DNA from: a virus
Virus record (IMG/VR): IMGVR_UViG_3300044797_000016
Coordinates: 1-39,523 of that record
Length of the DNA: 39,523 nucleotides
Reading direction: 5' to 3' (one strand)
The translations under genes were made by a program, and so were the position numbers. Under the pieces are notes generated by a model, which was not told the DNA's origin, did not search any database, and saw only the letters and a program-made list of their open reading frames with translations. Positions 6,304 through 33,225 of this stretch are shown here, one piece after another (positions within the stretch are counted from its first letter, which is position 1; every line of letters begins with the position of its first letter).

Positions 6304-6329
6304 GATGTTAAGATGTAATCTGCTTAACA
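6304..6329. promoter_or_regulatory. Operator-like inverted repeat, copy 1
   Basis: GATGTTAA, 11 bases, CTTAACA. The arms TGTTAA and TTAACA are inverted repeats. The same arrangement, with the same 11-base gap but a different gap sequence, recurs 44 bases later. TTAACCTTAACC is found shortly upstream (around 6272-6284). It looks like a protein-binding site, either for a late regulator or for replication initiation. Confidence 0.55.
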
Positions 6330-6347
6330 CATTTTCTCCGTCGATAA

Positions 6348-6373
6348 GATGTTAATATTAATTAAGCTTAACA
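6348..6373. promoter_or_regulatory. Operator-like inverted repeat, copy 2
   Basis: GATGTTAA, 11 bases, CTTAACA, start to start 44 bases (about four helical turns) after copy 1, so both would lie on the same face of the DNA. Only the arms are conserved between copies, not the centre, as expected for a dimeric binding protein. Confidence 0.55.
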
Positions 6374-6410
6374 TAGGGGGAGTAGGCATCCCTTAATTGA
6401 GACAGACGGT

Positions 6411-6440
6411 GGGGGTCAGAAAAGCCCCCTAACTTTTTTT
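6411..6440 (+). terminator. Probable rho-independent terminator
   Basis: GGGGG (6411-6415) pairs with CCCCC (6425-6429) around a nine-base loop and is followed by TAAC and seven T (6434-6440). It would stop plus-strand transcription from the KTSC region before the tRNA. It also implies that the tRNA and late operon have their own promoter downstream or depend on antitermination. Confidence 0.6.
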
Positions 6441-6450
6441 GATATATTAG

Positions 6451-6462
6451 ACGTATTGATTT
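6451..6462. repeat. Direct repeat flanking the tRNA, left copy
   Basis: ACGTATTGATTT, ending at the base just before the 5' end of the tRNA. An identical copy lies at 6544-6555, seven bases after the tRNA CCA end. Confidence 0.7.
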
Positions 6463-6537
6463 CGCTCTGTGGACCATTGGAACGTCGCAAGCCTCATAAG
6501 CTTGAAACAGTCGGTTCGATTCCGGCCAGAGCAACCA
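6463..6537 (+). tRNA. tRNA-Met (CAU) with initiator-type features
   Basis: Folds as a 75-base cloverleaf with an encoded CCA. Acceptor: CGCTCTG with CAGAGCA, leaving a C1-A72 mismatch; discriminator A73. D stem GAC/GTC with A11-T24 and GG in the loop. Anticodon stem CAAGC/GCTTG with loop CTCATAA, anticodon CAT at 6495-6497. T stem GTCGG/CCGGC, loop TTCGATT. The C1-A72 mismatch and A11-U24 pair are hallmarks of bacterial initiator tRNA (established knowledge); the usual three G-C pairs next to the anticodon loop are not present (here A-T, G-C, C-G). Most likely an initiator or initiator-like tRNA; tRNA-Ile2 (lysidine-modified CAU) is less likely. Confidence 0.85.
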
Positions 6538-6543
6538 TTTAAA

Positions 6544-6555
6544 ACGTATTGATTT
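6544..6555. repeat. Direct repeat flanking the tRNA, right copy
   Basis: ACGTATTGATTT, identical to 6451-6462, with a start-to-start distance of 93 bases. The repeat includes TTGATT, which could act as a -35 box for the late operon (TTATTC follows 18 bases later), but that promoter would be weak. Confidence 0.7.
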
Positions 6556-6606: not shown

Positions 6607-6843
6607 ATGACCGTTGAATCCGTTGAAAACGTATCTACTTCTAGTGATGTTCCTGTTAAAGAAAATTTAACATCAAATAACACGGAGAAACCTAAAGTCA
6701 GTCCAGCCCAAGATTTACGCAATATCCAAGCCCTTCTAGTCAATGGTATTTTCCCCGGACAGATGGCCCCGCAGGTCGTTCAAAGCTTTCAGTTACTTGA
6801 AAAAATGGCAGTAGAAATTGAGAAACAACAGGAGAGTAAATAA
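6607..6843 (+). CDS. Small hypothetical protein, first late gene
   Basis: Protein of 78 residues after AAGGAG at the usual distance. The N-terminal half is Ser, Thr, Val and Asn rich and looks unstructured; the C-terminal half (about 36-77) is helical (AQDLRNIQALL, then VVQSFQLLEKMAVEIEKQQ). No family recognised. Its TAA overlaps the next ATG (TAATG), so it is translated with the following genes. Confidence 0.65.
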   Translation: MTVESVENVSTSSDVPVKENLTSNNTEKPKVSPAQDLRNIQALLVNGIFPGQMAPQVVQSFQLLEKMAVEIEKQQESK

Positions 6844-7085
6844 TGGAATTTCCCTTAGCCAGAGACGCGGCCCAGGCCTCGTTAGATACATCCGCAGATA
6901 TGCACCTTCGTACTACAATAGCCGCTGACATTTGGACGGCTTGCCACAGCAATGCCTACACCACGTCAGCCATCACTTGGACCTCTGTCACTGAGGAACA
7001 GGCACTTATTATCTTCAAAGAGCTTCAACAGCAAGGTTATACATTAGTTTATGGTACCGGTACTGTCACAATCAGTTGGTCATAA
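6843..7085 (+). CDS. Small paralogue A of a tandem triplet
   Basis: Protein of 80 residues: a helical start, then TTSAITWTSVTEEQALIIF, ELQQQGY and a final beta strand ending TISWS. The same order (helix with TA, Ala-Ile-Ser strand, Glu helix, Leu-x-Gly-Tyr, terminal strand ending in Trp) is found in the next two genes, so all three are paralogues. Short phage proteins ending in I/V-S-W are often encoded near structural genes. They may be minor virion or assembly proteins; the actual role is unknown. Confidence 0.65.
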   Translation: MEFPLARDAAQASLDTSADMHLRTTIAADIWTACHSNAYTTSAITWTSVTEEQALIIFKELQQQGYTLVYGTGTVTISWS

Positions 7086-7098
7086 CAAGGAGATTTGA

Positions 7099-7326
7099 AT
7101 GAGAGGCATTCCTACAGAAATAGAATTACAACGTATGGCCGGAGATACATTGCTTCCCACTACACTACAAGCTATTTATACAGCTATATTAGCCGGAAAT
7201 GCTGTAACAGCGGCTATTTCTACATCCGGACATACCGGACCTGGTATTGAGAGATTGTTTATTGATTTACAAGGTCAGGGGCTAAATGTAGTTAATAGCG
7301 GCAGTACTTTTACAGTTAATTGGTAA
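7099..7326 (+). CDS. Small paralogue B of a tandem triplet
   Basis: Protein of 75 residues after AAGGAG. Features shared with its neighbours: LQAIYTAILAGNAVTAAIST, a central helix with IERLFIDLQGQGL, and a terminal strand TFTVNW. The spacing of conserved positions is the same as in the gene at 6843, although identity is low, which suggests an old duplication. Function unknown. Confidence 0.65.
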   Translation: MRGIPTEIELQRMAGDTLLPTTLQAIYTAILAGNAVTAAISTSGHTGPGIERLFIDLQGQGLNVVNSGSTFTVNW

Positions 7327-7349
7327 AACAGCTCTATAAGGAGATATAA

Positions 7350-7598
7350 ATGGAATTTTTTGATTCCCAAACGTTTCACAATCTATCTAGCCCTTTGCCT
7401 CCTCCGGATGCAGGATTGATAGGTGCGGTATTGGCCGCTATGTGTACCGCCATGGCTTCCCATCTGTTCGTTTCTTCGGCAGTTAGTACTTCCGGATATT
7501 CGGTAGCTTCTTCAGAAGAAGTTATTAGCGAACTACGTAAATTAGGCTATGGTGTTGATATTACCACCACACCCGGTTCTATTATAGTATCCTGGTAA
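7350..7598 (+). CDS. Small paralogue C of a tandem triplet
   Basis: Protein of 82 residues after AAGGAG. A longer, Pro-rich N terminus (SSPLPPPD) precedes the shared core: AVLAAMCTAM, SSAVSTSGY, SSEEVISELRKLGYGV, and a last strand SIIVSW. It is the most diverged of the three at the start, but the end is clearly the same module. Function unknown. Confidence 0.65.
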   Translation: MEFFDSQTFHNLSSPLPPPDAGLIGAVLAAMCTAMASHLFVSSAVSTSGYSVASSEEVISELRKLGYGVDITTTPGSIIVSW

Positions 7599-7607
7599 GA
7601 ACCTCTA

Positions 7608-7841
7608 ATGGGTCTTTCTCGTAAATCCCGCCGTAATATAGCGGTTTTCAACCGCCTGAAGGCTACGCCTTCTCAAGCCTTATATAGTGCAAAACGTATC
7701 CCCATTGATACCAAAATCAATACGTTTATAGATGCTTACAGGAATGTTAACCAGCTTGCAGTCTCTCCGCAAGCGGAGGAGCCTTTGAATGATACAGCTA
7801 ATAGTGCGGTTGGGGAAGTGGTTGGAGACAAGATTTCCTGA
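7608..7841 (+). CDS. Small basic hypothetical protein
   Basis: Protein of 77 residues with a basic N terminus (MGLSRKSRRNIAVFNRLK) and a more acidic C terminus. It overlaps the next gene by 53 bases in another frame. No strong ribosome binding site is seen before the ATG, only the end of the previous gene, so coupled translation is likely. No family recognised. It may bind nucleic acid through its start. Confidence 0.55.
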   Translation: MGLSRKSRRNIAVFNRLKATPSQALYSAKRIPIDTKINTFIDAYRNVNQLAVSPQAEEPLNDTANSAVGEVVGDKIS

Positions 7842-8121
7842 GAAGTTTGTTGTTACCTCTGAACGCTATAATAAGTTAGAATCAGATATACAAAATTGTA
7901 TTGAAAAAACAAATCAAATTGATCTTATTCTTAATCGTTTAAGTTCTGTTGAAACCAATGCTGTACATAAGGGCGCTGTTTCAGATCTTATTGCAGCCGT
8001 CAAAACCCTTAAAGATGAATATGTCAGTCTCAAAGCTTCACTAGGTATGGCCAGGATAGGCGACGCTGATATTAGAGCGATGCTTAATGGCTCCCCTATA
8101 GACCCGGAGGATACAATATAA
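7789..8121 (+). CDS. Hypothetical protein with WLETRFPEK motif
   Basis: Protein of 110 residues. GGAGGAG lies eight bases before the ATG, inside the upstream gene. The N-terminal GKWLETRFPEKFVVTSERY is a pattern I associate with small phage proteins encoded near the terminase or connector, but I cannot give a function. Residues 30-90 are probably coiled coil (CIEKTNQIDLILNRLSSVE, then VKTLKDEYVSLKASL). Its TAA overlaps the next ATG (TAATGG). Confidence 0.65.
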   Translation: MIQLIVRLGKWLETRFPEKFVVTSERYNKLESDIQNCIEKTNQIDLILNRLSSVETNAVHKGAVSDLIAAVKTLKDEYVSLKASLGMARIGDADIRAMLNGSPIDPEDTI

Positions 8122-8453
8122 TGGCTACCCCTAAAGCACAAGTATTTTACAGAGTTGTAAAGGCTGCCCCCGGACATCGTTATTCCGGCCTATACGGTGT
8201 TGAGAAGGTGTTCATTAAAGACAACACTATCTATAAGAAAGAGCTTGTCCATGAATGGGATTTACGCATTATCTCTGAAGCTGTTTTGGCCAAATTAGGC
8301 GGTTCTGCTGCTTATGACTCCTACACTGAAGATCACGATCTAGAAGATGCTGTGGAAGATCCTAGTATTGTAGAGGCGAAAGCCCGTACTAAAGAGGATT
8401 TGAAGGACTTAACTCAGCGTAAACTTAATAAAGAAATGAAGTGGTTTAAATAA
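8121..8453 (+). CDS. Hypothetical protein upstream of terminase
   Basis: Protein of 110 residues. The N-terminal half is beta-prone (QVFYRVVKAAPGHRYSGLYG) and the C-terminal half charged and helical (VEAKARTKEDLKDLTQ). It overlaps both neighbours by one base (TAATG). No family recognised. Its position, conserved in coupling, directly before the small terminase suggests a packaging or connector accessory, which is inference only. Confidence 0.6.
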   Translation: MATPKAQVFYRVVKAAPGHRYSGLYGVEKVFIKDNTIYKKELVHEWDLRIISEAVLAKLGGSAAYDSYTEDHDLEDAVEDPSIVEAKARTKEDLKDLTQRKLNKEMKWFK

Positions 8454-8842
8454 TGTTCTCAAAAGGCAATCAATATGGCAGAGGCAGACCAAAGATAAGC
8501 CTCAATAAGCCGGAGCTTCTTTTGCCTATTATCTTCCAAAAGGCCCATATTAATTGGGCTAATGACTTTACATTATTGTATAAGCAATGGAAGGCTGGTT
8601 TTATTAATCCTTTAGATGCCCGTAAGTTCGATTTATATCTACAACTTATGCCTTATTTATGCACTAAAGTGAATATTAAAGACCTAGATGCTTCTAAGTT
8701 TGTTACAGAACGGGATCAGAAGGCCATGACAGATCAAACAGCTGCGCTACTAGAGGCCCTTGAGAATGAAACAAAGTCAAGTAGAAATGGTAAAGAAGCT
8801 GGCTTGGCAAACAGGCCATCTCAAATACCTCCAAAGGCCTAG
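8453..8842 (+). CDS. Probable terminase small subunit
   Basis: Protein of 129 residues. It starts MFSKGNQYGRGRPK; the pattern KGN-x-G-x-GRPK is frequent at the start of phage small-terminase-like proteins. The remainder is mostly helical. The gene lies directly upstream of, and overlaps, the large subunit gene, the usual order. The small subunit recognises packaging sites and regulates the large subunit ATPase. I see no clear helix-turn-helix, so the call relies on the N-terminal motif and the position. Confidence 0.6.
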   Translation: MFSKGNQYGRGRPKISLNKPELLLPIIFQKAHINWANDFTLLYKQWKAGFINPLDARKFDLYLQLMPYLCTKVNIKDLDASKFVTERDQKAMTDQTAALLEALENETKSSRNGKEAGLANRPSQIPPKA

Positions 8843-10256
8843 TCAACGCCTTCTGTATGAAGCCCGAACAGAAGCCTATAAATCATCTCGTAAGTATGTT
8901 TTTTGCTGTGGCCGGGGTTGGGGGAAGTCTTTTTACCTTTTCTCCGGTTGTGTGGAAACAGCCATTCAGTATCCCGGTTCCGATTCAGTATTTGTCGCTC
9001 CTGTACAGCGTAAGGTATCGGAATACCTCGAACCGATAGCCAGAGACGTATTTAAGGACTGCCCCGATGATCTTAAACCTAGGTTTTACACCGCAGATCT
9101 TATCTACAAGTTTCCCAATGGGTCACGCATTATCGTTTGTGGTTCAAATCAAAAAGCATTTGATAATATTCGAGGCGGTACCTTTAAAAAAGCGGCTGTT
9201 GATGAGGGTGCGTACCATGACTACCTCATTGAACTTATCGAGAGAGTACTTCTTCCGGCGCTCAATAAGGGTAATGGGTATCTCGAACTTGGGAGTACAC
9301 CTCCTGATGTGGAACACCCATTTGACCAGAGATACTGTACGGAGGCGGAGTTGGCTGGCTACTACTTCCACGCCACAATTTACGATGCCGGTTATCCTGA
9401 AGAGCAAATATCAGAATTTAAAAGGGAAGCTGGTTGGCTTGAAACAGAAAATCGTTGGAAATCTCCCGCACACGAATTAACTTGGCGTATTGAGTATATG
9501 GCCGAAAGGGGACTTAGAAACCCCGAAAAGACTATTATTCCCGGGTGGGATGATAAATACATAAAGGACATTAAGCATGACTCCTACTATCCCTTCTTTA
9601 ACAAAGCTGTTAGTTTGGATGTGGGTACTAAGCATGATCTTACTGTGGCGCTATTTGGCTATTATCATTATCTCAACGCTACACTTGTAATCGAAGATGA
9701 ATTCAAACTTCCTGGACCTGAATTCACAACACTTAAATTAAGTGCCGCAATTAAAGTTAAAGAGCGTAACCTTTGGGGTAGTCAGCAACCCTGTGTTAGG
9801 GTCAGTGATATTTCCGACATTCAAGCGGATCTCAACTCCACACACAATTTACCTTTTATTAGTGTGTCCAAGACCGAACTACATTCGATGGTTAATAGGC
9901 TCAACCTTCTTGTTGACGCTGGCCGTCTTGTGGTTCACCCTCGTTGCAAGCTTCTTATACAAACACTCAAGAACGGTATTTGGGATAAGAACAGGAGCGA
10001 ATTCGCACACTCAGAGATAGGATTGGGGCATATGGACGCGCTCGCCTCTTTAATCTATATGCATTTGGCATTTGAAGCCTATTATGCAGTTAATCCAATA
10101 CCAATAGCAGCCCCGACCTTTACTAATTTAGATTTACACGGCAATTATGGCAGAATCAATGAATCAGTTTGGAGTAAAGTATTTCCTGAAGAAAAGAAAG
10201 ACGATTTGGAAGATGAACTTCCCTATCATGATGAAAATGGTCAAGAGGAATGGTAA
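8766..10256 (+). CDS. terL: Terminase large subunit
   Basis: Protein of 496 residues from the ATG at 8766 (the frame opens at a TTG at 8760; GAGG at 8753-8756 suits the ATG better). Walker A GRGWGKS at 49-55, Walker B AAVDEG at about 143-148, then the RNase H-like nuclease domain with SLDVGTKHD near 283-291 and GHMDALASLIY near the C-terminal region. This is the motor that pumps DNA into the prohead through the portal and cuts it. It overlaps the small subunit gene by 77 bases; the portal follows after four bases. Confidence 0.93.
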   Translation: MKQSQVEMVKKLAWQTGHLKYLQRPSQRLLYEARTEAYKSSRKYVFCCGRGWGKSFYLFSGCVETAIQYPGSDSVFVAPVQRKVSEYLEPIARDVFKDCPDDLKPRFYTADLIYKFPNGSRIIVCGSNQKAFDNIRGGTFKKAAVDEGAYHDYLIELIERVLLPALNKGNGYLELGSTPPDVEHPFDQRYCTEAELAGYYFHATIYDAGYPEEQISEFKREAGWLETENRWKSPAHELTWRIEYMAERGLRNPEKTIIPGWDDKYIKDIKHDSYYPFFNKAVSLDVGTKHDLTVALFGYYHYLNATLVIEDEFKLPGPEFTTLKLSAAIKVKERNLWGSQQPCVRVSDISDIQADLNSTHNLPFISVSKTELHSMVNRLNLLVDAGRLVVHPRCKLLIQTLKNGIWDKNRSEFAHSEIGLGHMDALASLIYMHLAFEAYYAVNPIPIAAPTFTNLDLHGNYGRINESVWSKVFPEEKKDDLEDELPYHDENGQEEW

Positions 10257-17278: not shown

Positions 17279-17382
17279 TTCCCCACCACAGACTCCGCAG
17301 TTAGGATATCCTCGGTGTTAAGCCCTCTAACAAGAGTAGCTTGGGTTATTAGTTACACAAAATAATAATTCAGGAGGCCATA

Positions 17383-18654
17383 ATGGCTAATTCAGCAGAT
17401 ACATTTGGAGTATTACAAGGAAACTTTAAAGAAGTATACGGCGATCTACATAATCTCATCCCAGATACAGCCAAGATGATGAAGATGATCCCGTACAAGC
17501 CGAAAGCGAAGATTGGTAACGAATTCGTTGAGGCCGTCAAATTGACCCATGAACATGGCGTGACATATTCTCAATCAGATAATAACGCGGGTGCGCTCGT
17601 GACATTGAGCACCCCGATTCCGTTGACTCTTTTGGATGCGAAAGTGATGTCTTCCGTTCTGTTGCTTCGTGCGCAGATTGGTTATGACGCATTTGCCCGC
17701 GCCGAAGGCGGAGACAAAGTGGCGTTCAAAGATGCTTCCGAGTTGGTTGTTGAAGACTTGCTCGAATCCATCACCAAACGTTTAGAAATTTGCTTGCTTT
17801 ACGGATCATCCCCTACCGGTATTGGCGGGATTCCTGAAGGCGGAGCTTCTAACGTCGCAGGTGTCCTTACCCTCGTTCTTCTCCCGGCTCAATGGGCGAC
17901 CGGAATTTGGGTGGGATCAGAAAACGCGCAGGTTGATATTTATCATGGTAGCACAAAGATCAATACCAATGCTCCTTTCGTAGTTACGTCCGTTAATCCC
18001 GACACCTATACCTTGGTGTTTACGGGTAATGCGACGGATGCAGCGGCTGTCACAACTTACGTTACAGCTAACGCGGATGCCTTCATTGTATTCACCGGAT
18101 CATTCGGAAACGAAATGAGCGGATTGGATGCAGTTTGTTTGAACGCGGGAACGCTCTGGAACATCAGTGCGGCCTCTTATGCGTTATGGCACGCGAACGT
18201 GTATGACGCAGGCGCGGCTAATCTGACGATGGGTAAGCTTCAGTCTGCCATTCAGAAAGCTGTCCAGAAGGGCCTTGACGGAGATGTTAACGTCATTTGT
18301 AACCCGGCTACTTGGGCAACCCTGAATACCGACCTTGCGGCTCTTCGACGTTTCGTTGAAGATTCCACGGAAGGCGAACTAGGCGTTGAGTCCATCAAAT
18401 ACCTGTACGCAGGTGGAAAGATGGATGTTGTGGCTTATAACCTCTGCAAAGAAGGTGAATGTTTCATTATGCCTAAAAAAGGTGTGAATCGTATCGGCGC
18501 GGCTGATATCGGTTTCAAACTTCCTGGCGGCGATAATGGATTCCTTCACGTTCCGGACCGGATGGGTTATGAGTTCCGCTTGTTCTCTTCACAGGCGTTC
18601 TTCACTCCGTTCGTTGCTAAACTTGTCAAGATCTTTGACATTGTCAACAGCTAA
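17383..18654 (+). CDS. Major capsid protein
   Basis: Protein of 423 residues following the scaffold gene, with a strong AGGAGG. The N-terminal part (DLHNLIPDTAKMMKMIPYKP) and the long central helix region resemble HK97-fold coat proteins; residues about 165-245 are beta-rich and Thr/Ala/Asn rich and may be an inserted surface domain. The C-terminal half (GKLQSAIQKAVQKGL through VNRIGAADIGFKLPGG) completes the fold. The gene is visibly richer in G and C at third positions than its neighbours, as expected of the most highly translated gene. A 104-base leader precedes it and a long hairpin follows. Confidence 0.82.
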   Translation: MANSADTFGVLQGNFKEVYGDLHNLIPDTAKMMKMIPYKPKAKIGNEFVEAVKLTHEHGVTYSQSDNNAGALVTLSTPIPLTLLDAKVMSSVLLLRAQIGYDAFARAEGGDKVAFKDASELVVEDLLESITKRLEICLLYGSSPTGIGGIPEGGASNVAGVLTLVLLPAQWATGIWVGSENAQVDIYHGSTKINTNAPFVVTSVNPDTYTLVFTGNATDAAAVTTYVTANADAFIVFTGSFGNEMSGLDAVCLNAGTLWNISAASYALWHANVYDAGAANLTMGKLQSAIQKAVQKGLDGDVNVICNPATWATLNTDLAALRRFVEDSTEGELGVESIKYLYAGGKMDVVAYNLCKEGECFIMPKKGVNRIGAADIGFKLPGGDNGFLHVPDRMGYEFRLFSSQAFFTPFVAKLVKIFDIVNS

Positions 18655-32354: not shown

Positions 32355-32383
32355 AATATAACAGGCTTTCCCTACTTTGTCAA
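32355..32383 (-). promoter_or_regulatory. Sigma70-type promoter with inverted repeat
   Basis: On the minus strand, TTGACA (32378-32383), 17 bp ending TGT, then TATATT (32355-32360). A perfect seven-base inverted repeat, AACAGGC (32360-32366) and GCCTGTT (32385-32391), brackets the spacer and -35 box. The half-sites AGGC/GCCT are the same as at the main early promoter, but two bases closer together. It lies in the last codons of the protease gene. Confidence 0.85.
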
Positions 32384-33070
32384 GGCCTGTTTTAAGAAAT
32401 CTTTAATATGTTCCAGCCCTACAGCAAACCCCATCCCTGCCGCTGGTTCAAAGGGATTCTCCATGATTGTACCTTCTCCTACACCCACCAATCGTCCTGA
32501 GAGGTCTACCAATGGCCCTCCTGAATTGCCGGGATTAGTTGCTGCGCTTTGGATTACTACACCATGCGGCACGCCTTCAATGTCATCCGTGAAGTTCTCT
32601 ACCCATCCTACACTTACCGTATGCTGTAAGCCTAATGGAGAGCCGAATAGCACCACTTCCTGCCCTCTTACTAAAGGCTTGCCTATTTTGAAGTAAGGGA
32701 AGTTATACTGCGGTATAACAAGGTTAATCTGACCATTCTCTAATACAAATGGAGAATCTCCGTCTTTCCATAAAGGTCTTACTAAAGCTAAATCAAGGCG
32801 TTTATCTACAACCCCTATAGCGCCGACATAAACCGTTCCATCATCTGTCTTAATAAACACCTTGGTTATCTTATCATCAGACACGCAATGAGCACAAGTC
32901 AATACGTCTCCTTCTTTATCAATAAAAGCTCCTGAGCATACTCCTTGTCTATGATCGCTAAGTACCATACCTAATTTAACGACTTTATCTTTATCCTTTA
33001 CTACGACTTTCTCGGGGGACATGGCACAAGCAAACATTGGAACAAACAGCAAAAATAATTTTTTCATCAT
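32372..33070 (-). CDS. Exported trypsin-like serine protease
   Basis: Protein of 232 residues from the ATG at 33070, chosen because AGAGGAG lies five bases upstream; the frame extends eight codons further. An N-terminal signal peptide (KKLFLLFVPMFACAM) is followed by a chymotrypsin-fold protease of the HtrA/trypsin type with all three catalytic residues in context: His61 (LTCAHC), Asp93 (KRLDLALVRP) and Ser183 (NPGNSGGPLVDL). The Cys at the end of the signal has a poor lipobox, so lipoprotein anchoring is uncertain. No PDZ domain. It would act in the periplasm or at the cell surface; a role in host defence or superinfection exclusion is only a guess. Confidence 0.85.
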   Translation of the reverse strand: MMKKLFLLFVPMFACAMSPEKVVVKDKDKVVKLGMVLSDHRQGVCSGAFIDKEGDVLTCAHCVSDDKITKVFIKTDDGTVYVGAIGVVDKRLDLALVRPLWKDGDSPFVLENGQINLVIPQYNFPYFKIGKPLVRGQEVVLFGSPLGLQHTVSVGWVENFTDDIEGVPHGVVIQSAATNPGNSGGPLVDLSGRLVGVGEGTIMENPFEPAAGMGFAVGLEHIKDFLKQALTK

Positions 33071-33225
33071 TTTGACTCCTCTTGTTTTAAACAAATACAG
33101 TCTATATTTTTATCAACTAAATCTAATTGACGAATTGCATATGCGCATGTTTCAACATCTGGATACTCCACAACGGCGGTAATAAATCCGTGTAATAAAT
33201 GAATTGTTAATATTAAACTGTACAT
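33067..33225 (-). CDS. Small hydrophobic-start protein (52 residues)
   Basis: From the ATG at 33225, immediately after the stop of the upstream gene, 52 residues: a hydrophobic first 20 (MYSLILTIHLLHGFITAVVE), then a short helical part with three Cys (ETCAYAIRQLDL, and CIC). The stop overlaps the protease ATG (ATGATG), so protease translation is probably coupled to it. The end carries the AGAGGAG that serves the protease. No family recognised; it may assist export. Confidence 0.6.
   Translation of the reverse strand: MYSLILTIHLLHGFITAVVEYPDVETCAYAIRQLDLVDKNIDCICLKQEESK

Follow-up and report, generated by a model that had tools for sequence, protein, structure and literature searches.

The only tRNA gene of the virus record analysed here is best read, from its sequence, as encoding an initiator-type variant and not a standard tRNA-fMet; the wording 'variant' was chosen because the full motif of three consecutive G-C pairs in the anticodon stem is absent. 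Initiator tRNA begins every bacterial protein, and these three pairs are thought to define it. Phage tRNAs are usually viewed as codon supplements or as nuclease-resistant spares. The DNA studied (the window) is a complete IMG/VR virus record (39,523 bases), and its genes include those for a terminase, a major head protein, a DNA polymerase and a primase/helicase. Two close relatives were found: L002, a 41-kb contig (terminase 78%), and L003, a 19-kb fragment (terminase 79%).

ARAGORN, which the preliminary description had proposed to run, detected exactly one tRNA in the window, a tRNA-Met(CAT) (Table 1), in agreement with the single tRNA claimed there. The Rfam model RF00005 matched at 6463-6534 with 50.6 bits (E 4e-8; Rfam cut-off 29) and nowhere else in the record. 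On account of this covariance-model E-value the tRNA is beyond chance; its RNA folding energy (z = -1.6) is uninformative alone. The gene is parsed as CGCTCTG TG GACC ATTGGAA CGTC G CAAGC CTCATAA GCTTG AAACA GTCGG TTCGATT CCGGC CAGAGCA ACCA. The acceptor stem (CGCTCTG/CAGAGCA) starts with C1xA72, followed by G2-C71, C3-G70 and T4-A69, and the 3' end consists of A73 and a CCA that is encoded in the gene. The D-stem is built of G10-C25, A11-T24, C12-G23 and a C13xC22 mismatch, the last of which was missing from the preliminary description. The D-loop has 7 nt, the T-loop reads TTCGATT, and the Levitt pair is reversed to U15-A48 and thereby compensated. The anticodon stem is formed by C27-G43, A28-T42, A29-T41, G30-C40 and C31-G39, so that G30-C40 is kept and the full three-G-C motif is lost. 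The C1-A72 mismatch, A11-T24, the anticodon CAT in a CTCATAA loop, the encoded CCA and the replacement of the three G-C pairs by A-T, G-C and C-G had all been described correctly.

Table 1. Features of the window around the tRNA gene.
Feature	Position	Strand	Basis or remark
Initiator-type tRNA gene, anticodon CAT	6463-6537	+	ARAGORN, Rfam RF00005, structural parse
Anticodon arm CAAGC-CTCATAA-GCTTG	6488-6504	+	Structural parse; cited literature on A1339/G30-C40 and VapC
Terminator-like hairpin GGGGGTCAGAAAAGCCCCC and T-run	6411-6439	+	Just upstream of the tRNA
Direct repeat ACGTATTGATTT, left copy	6451-6462	+	Abuts the tRNA
Direct repeat ACGTATTGATTT, right copy	6544-6555	+	6 nt past CCA
ACGTATTGATTT, third exact copy	7714-7725	-	
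Start of packaging/structural operon: small ORFs, then large terminase (phrog_2)	6607-10256	+	First gene ATG at 6607

The determinants published for formylation are a 1-72 mismatch, G2-C71, C3-G70 and A11-U24 (PMC7949028), all of which are present in the window tRNA. The features of an initiator that were found are thus the open 1-72 end, these two acceptor pairs with A11-U24, and G30-C40; three consecutive G-C pairs at 29-41, 30-40 and 31-39 were not. A comparison of covariance models for initiator, Met and Ile2 was replaced by a position-wise classifier. For this, IMG/VR was scanned with a pattern for CAT tRNAs with encoded CCA, without selection on 1-72, and the 108 distinct tRNAs among the matches listed comprised 30 that are mismatched at 1-72, 56 with G-C or A-U and 22 that are ambiguous (weak U-A or G-U). 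A naive-Bayes score from which 1-72 was left out was correct for 29 of the 30 mismatched and 55 of the 56 paired tRNAs by leave-one-out. Towards the mismatched class the window tRNA scored +7.8 bits and the CAT tRNA of L002 +12.3 bits, and none of the 56 paired phage tRNAs listed scored as high as the window tRNA. The top contributor was A11-T24 (21 of the 30 mismatched vs 0 of the 56 paired tRNAs listed), whereas T4-A69 and C5-G68 lowered the score. The initiator type claimed in the preliminary description is therefore borne out by the published determinants and by a classifier that is blind to 1-72.

Two other identities can be weighed on the same evidence. A CAT anticodon might belong to a tRNA-Ile2, in which host TilS would convert C34 to lysidine so that the tRNA reads AUA in the phage genes. 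AUA makes up 155 of the 560 Ile codons counted there, or 15.3 of every 1000 codons, and about half of the listed phage CAT tRNAs have a paired acceptor of the elongator or Ile2 type. However, an Ile2 would be expected to combine a paired 1-72 with C11-G24, which is present in 54 of the 56 paired phage CAT tRNAs listed, whereas the window tRNA has A11-T24 and, opposite to elongators, C1xA72. Among the matches listed it is also nearer to bacterial initiators (best identity 75%) than to phage elongators (best 63%), and we judge the Ile2 reading to be distinctly improbable. An elongator tRNA-Met, or a tRNA of dual use, in which the acceptor mismatch is incidental seems very improbable. With two of its three G-C pairs lost, the anticodon arm is indeed partly elongator-like, but an elongator should have a paired 1-72 together with the C30-G40 that elongator tRNA-Met carries (PMC11497404), whereas here C1xA72 coincides with G2-C71, C3-G70, A11-T24 and G30-C40. 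Moreover, the relative L002 likewise has C1xA72.

The extent to which the initiator signature is conserved was surveyed with one pattern, CGC...CAT...GCAACCA, run on viral contigs and on bacterial and archaeal genomes; the counts refer to the matches listed and are no census, the sequences are related, and P values serve as a guide only. The 99 distinct bacterial initiators listed all had A11-T24, G30-C40 and G4-C69, and 98 of them had G31-C39, but the full motif occurred in 74. Because 25 of the 99 are also without the full set, the three-G-C motif is not strictly defining. The loss of the motif noted in the preliminary description stands insofar as the full motif is gone, and needs refining as to the retention of G30-C40 and this incompleteness in listed bacterial initiators. 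In the 110 distinct viral C1xA72 CAT tRNAs listed, A11-T24 was found in 51, G30-C40 in 108, G31-C39 in 66 and the full motif in 13. Evidently, some of these matches come from proviral contigs and represent fMet genes of the host. A non-host-like set was defined as the 79 listed viral tRNAs that are less than 85% identical to every bacterial control; it had G30-C40 in 77, A11-T24 in 23 and the full motif in 5. Among the matches listed, G30-C40 in 77/79 compares with 29/56 in the paired phage CAT tRNAs (P = 9e-11); after clustering at 85% identity the corresponding counts are 39/41 vs 18/42 (P = 2e-7). The bias persisted in the 75% identity clusters listed (P = 0.015), although these (8 vs 12) are few for strong tests. 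A U31-G39 wobble closing the anticodon loop (GT-CTCATAA-GC) was observed in 24 of the 79 non-host-like tRNAs listed (e.g. L017, L042, L061, L110) and in 10 of the 41 clusters of this set, in none of the 99 bacterial initiators listed and in about 1/50 of the paired phage CAT tRNAs listed. The phage of the window is no special case, CAT tRNAs with initiator-like features being common in IMG/VR.

From these counts it follows that in phage C1xA72 tRNAs most of the signature drifts, whereas G30-C40 is held. This pair makes a type I A-minor contact with A1339 of the 16S rRNA, and translation in vivo falls about 20-fold when C-G takes its place (PMC11497404). Its retention amid drift is the residue that selection for initiation in the P site would leave. 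Since the pair kept is the one contacted by A1339, the window tRNA looks like a working initiator pared down to essentials. Gene, structure, determinants and comparative constraint are established for this tRNA.

The altered 31-39 pair could have another meaning. Enteric VapC cuts initiator tRNA between A38 and C39 (PMC4105405), the position occupied by A38-G39 in the window tRNA, and phage tRNAs changed near cut sites have been proposed to act in anti-defence (PMC10264068). C39 was present in 98/99 bacterial initiators but in 68/110 viral C1xA72 tRNAs among the matches listed. The main role of the tRNA might then be to survive VapC-type cuts as a replacement made resistant by the change at 31-39, a reading that concerns purpose and overlaps in mechanism with the explanation preferred below. 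We regard this as unlikely. Because 29-41 is relaxed too and L002 keeps C39 in a G31-C39 pair, relaxed constraint would suffice without nucleases and could explain the pattern equally well. In addition, phages are reported generally to avoid encoding tRNA-fMet (PMC10264068).

The CAT tRNA of L002 (17429-17504) occupies the gap that precedes the major capsid gene, a different locus from that of the window tRNA, and is parsed as CGCGGTG TG ATGT TTCGGAA ACAT T CCTGG TCCATAC CCAGG CTCCAA GTTGG TTCGACT CCAAC CACCGCA ACCA. It shares C1xA72, G2-C71, C3-G70 and G30-C40 with the window tRNA, but has T11-A24 and C33. U33 is near-universal in tRNAs, and its replacement by C33 is recorded here as an observation. 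The two tRNAs are 57% identical over 60 aligned positions. Both have U15-A48, found otherwise in 1 of the 110 viral and 0 of the 99 bacterial tRNAs listed, which suggests that they descend from one ancestor and were relocated, or that they share a source. At the site of L002 that matches the window tRNA (7406-7480) a degenerate tRNA is present (RF00005, 48 bits) behind a similar hairpin; its anticodon loop is aberrant, and ARAGORN reports a two-base, Lys-like 'tt'. L003 has no tRNA at the equivalent site nor before the capsid gene. The DNA-polymerase relative L360 gave no match to the CAT-tRNA pattern in its record and no ARAGORN tRNA in the part examined. The wider family found consists of L002, L003, L360 and distant terminase relatives, one of which (G004) carries a tRNA-Asn. 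A terminase profile search of genome contigs for the host gave no relative, and INPHARED gave no DNA match to the tRNA region.

Between the end of the terminator-like hairpin and the tRNA lie 23 nt, and L002 and L003 have a similar hairpin ahead of the packaging operon. No promoter-like site was found directly upstream of the tRNA. Mismatched copies of ACGTATTGATTT occur in the window at chance frequency, which only the three exact copies exceed. The two flanking copies suggest that the tRNA was inserted into the leader, or that a duplication took place within it; the repeat may be an insertion scar or a regulatory site. Further upstream, the strand-switch region contains AT-rich repeats at 6304-6374 that may mark an operator or an origin of replication: a direct repeat of 26 nt with copies at 6304 and 6348, and an inverted repeat (13+13 nt) at 6349-6374. 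Near the replication genes, at 32372-33094 on the minus strand, a trypsin-like serine protease (phrog_9683) with a signal-peptide-like N terminus is encoded.

The 12-nt direct repeat on both sides of the tRNA, the different, degenerate tRNA-like element that L002 has in this position and the mismatch in the D-stem would fit a passenger, be it an attachment-site remnant, a decaying captured host tRNA or a mere mark for RNase P processing in a late leader. We think this quite unlikely, as the remaining stems show no defect other than the C1xA72 end, the identity elements are kept and the change at the tertiary pair 15-48 is a compensated one. None of the 99 bacterial initiators listed shares more than 75% identity with the body; therefore it is no recent capture from those sampled. 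An attachment-site remnant was rejected, no integrase being found among the ORFs scanned (a subset of all ORFs).

The best explanation, which we consider probable, is a phage-encoded initiator-type tRNA that is processed by the host and supplements or partly replaces host fMet-tRNA. Its expression, charging, formylation, use in the P site and benefit to the phage are inferred along the following lines. Host RNases would trim the transcript, in which CCA is already encoded, and host MetRS would charge the tRNA with Met via the CAU anticodon. Host Fmt would then formylate it through C1xA72, G2-C71, C3-G70 and A11-U24, and the open 1-72 end would keep it from EF-Tu and peptidyl-tRNA hydrolase. 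IF2 would place it in the P site, where A1339 would grip the retained G30-C40, and it would supplement or partly replace host fMet-tRNA at phage ATG starts when the host pool is limiting. On the simplest account it would add to the host's supply of initiator tRNA while phage proteins are made; judged by the comparative evidence, the tRNA is probably functional. TTG starts and a leaderless mRNA, offered earlier as the rationale, find no support: the start was ATG in 33/33 genes checked, with an SD-like stretch before most. The full three-G-C motif is usually reported to be important for initiation, and the loss of G29-C41 and G31-C39 was counted against an initiator role. So were T4-A69 (vs G4-C69 in 99/99 bacterial controls listed), the C13xC22 mismatch, the hairpin upstream without a promoter-like site, and the absence of a tRNA from both sites in the relative L003, although this is a 19-kb fragment.

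Many phages carry similarly altered initiator tRNAs, and this broad pattern outweighs the single gene in interest. That 30 of the 108 listed viral CAT tRNAs are mismatched at 1-72 and 22 more are weak contrasts with the reported avoidance of fMet (PMC10264068). The C1xA72 phage tRNAs can be viewed as mutagenesis done by nature to probe the requirements of an initiator, and they open the control of translation initiation by phages to direct tests. It is a tentative idea, to which we give somewhat less than even credence, that initiators form a large and overlooked group among phage tRNAs, mostly annotated as tRNA-Met, which retain nothing of the signature but the open 1-72 end and G30-C40 and take over or rescue initiation in infected cells, partly since the altered anticodon stem escapes initiator-specific toxins. 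No description of a reduced initiator signature was found in the literature searched, which covers only some of the subscription journals. Phage fMet tRNAs are a known kind; the reduced signature is the new part. In the huge phage 1-SewaA, phage-encoded tRNAs called as formylmethionine have been reported (PMC10747093), but that phage has 47 tRNAs.

The window tRNA agrees with bacterial tRNA-fMet in C1xA72, G2-C71, C3-G70, A73, A11-U24, the CUCAUAA loop and G30-C40. It differs in having A29-U41 and C31-G39 in place of G-C pairs, U4-A69, C13xC22 and a 7-nt D-loop with U15-A48, and in its identity of 75% or lower to every listed control. Initiators with TCAGG-CTCATAA-CCTGA (Microvirga, Pelagibacteraceae, Bacteroidales) resemble it in combining A29-U41 with G30-C40 and in missing the full motif, but they keep G31-C39 and G4-C69. 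An anticodon arm almost identical to that of the window (CCAGC-CTCATAA-GCTGG) was seen in Pseudomonas phage LESphi2 (42 kb, OQ594955.1, L375), whose CAT tRNA lies at 17342-17416 between genes for a RelE-like toxin and a holin. The cultured T5-like phages Enterobacter KKP_3711, Escherichia TrudiGerster and Salmonella beppo carry CAT tRNAs, annotated as plain tRNA-Met, that share a weak or mismatched 1-72 and G30-C40 with the window tRNA. Their 1-72 is C-U, U-A or U-U instead of C1xA72, and they have further tRNA genes around them in genomes of about 110 kb; the window tRNA, by contrast, stands alone in a 39.5-kb record.
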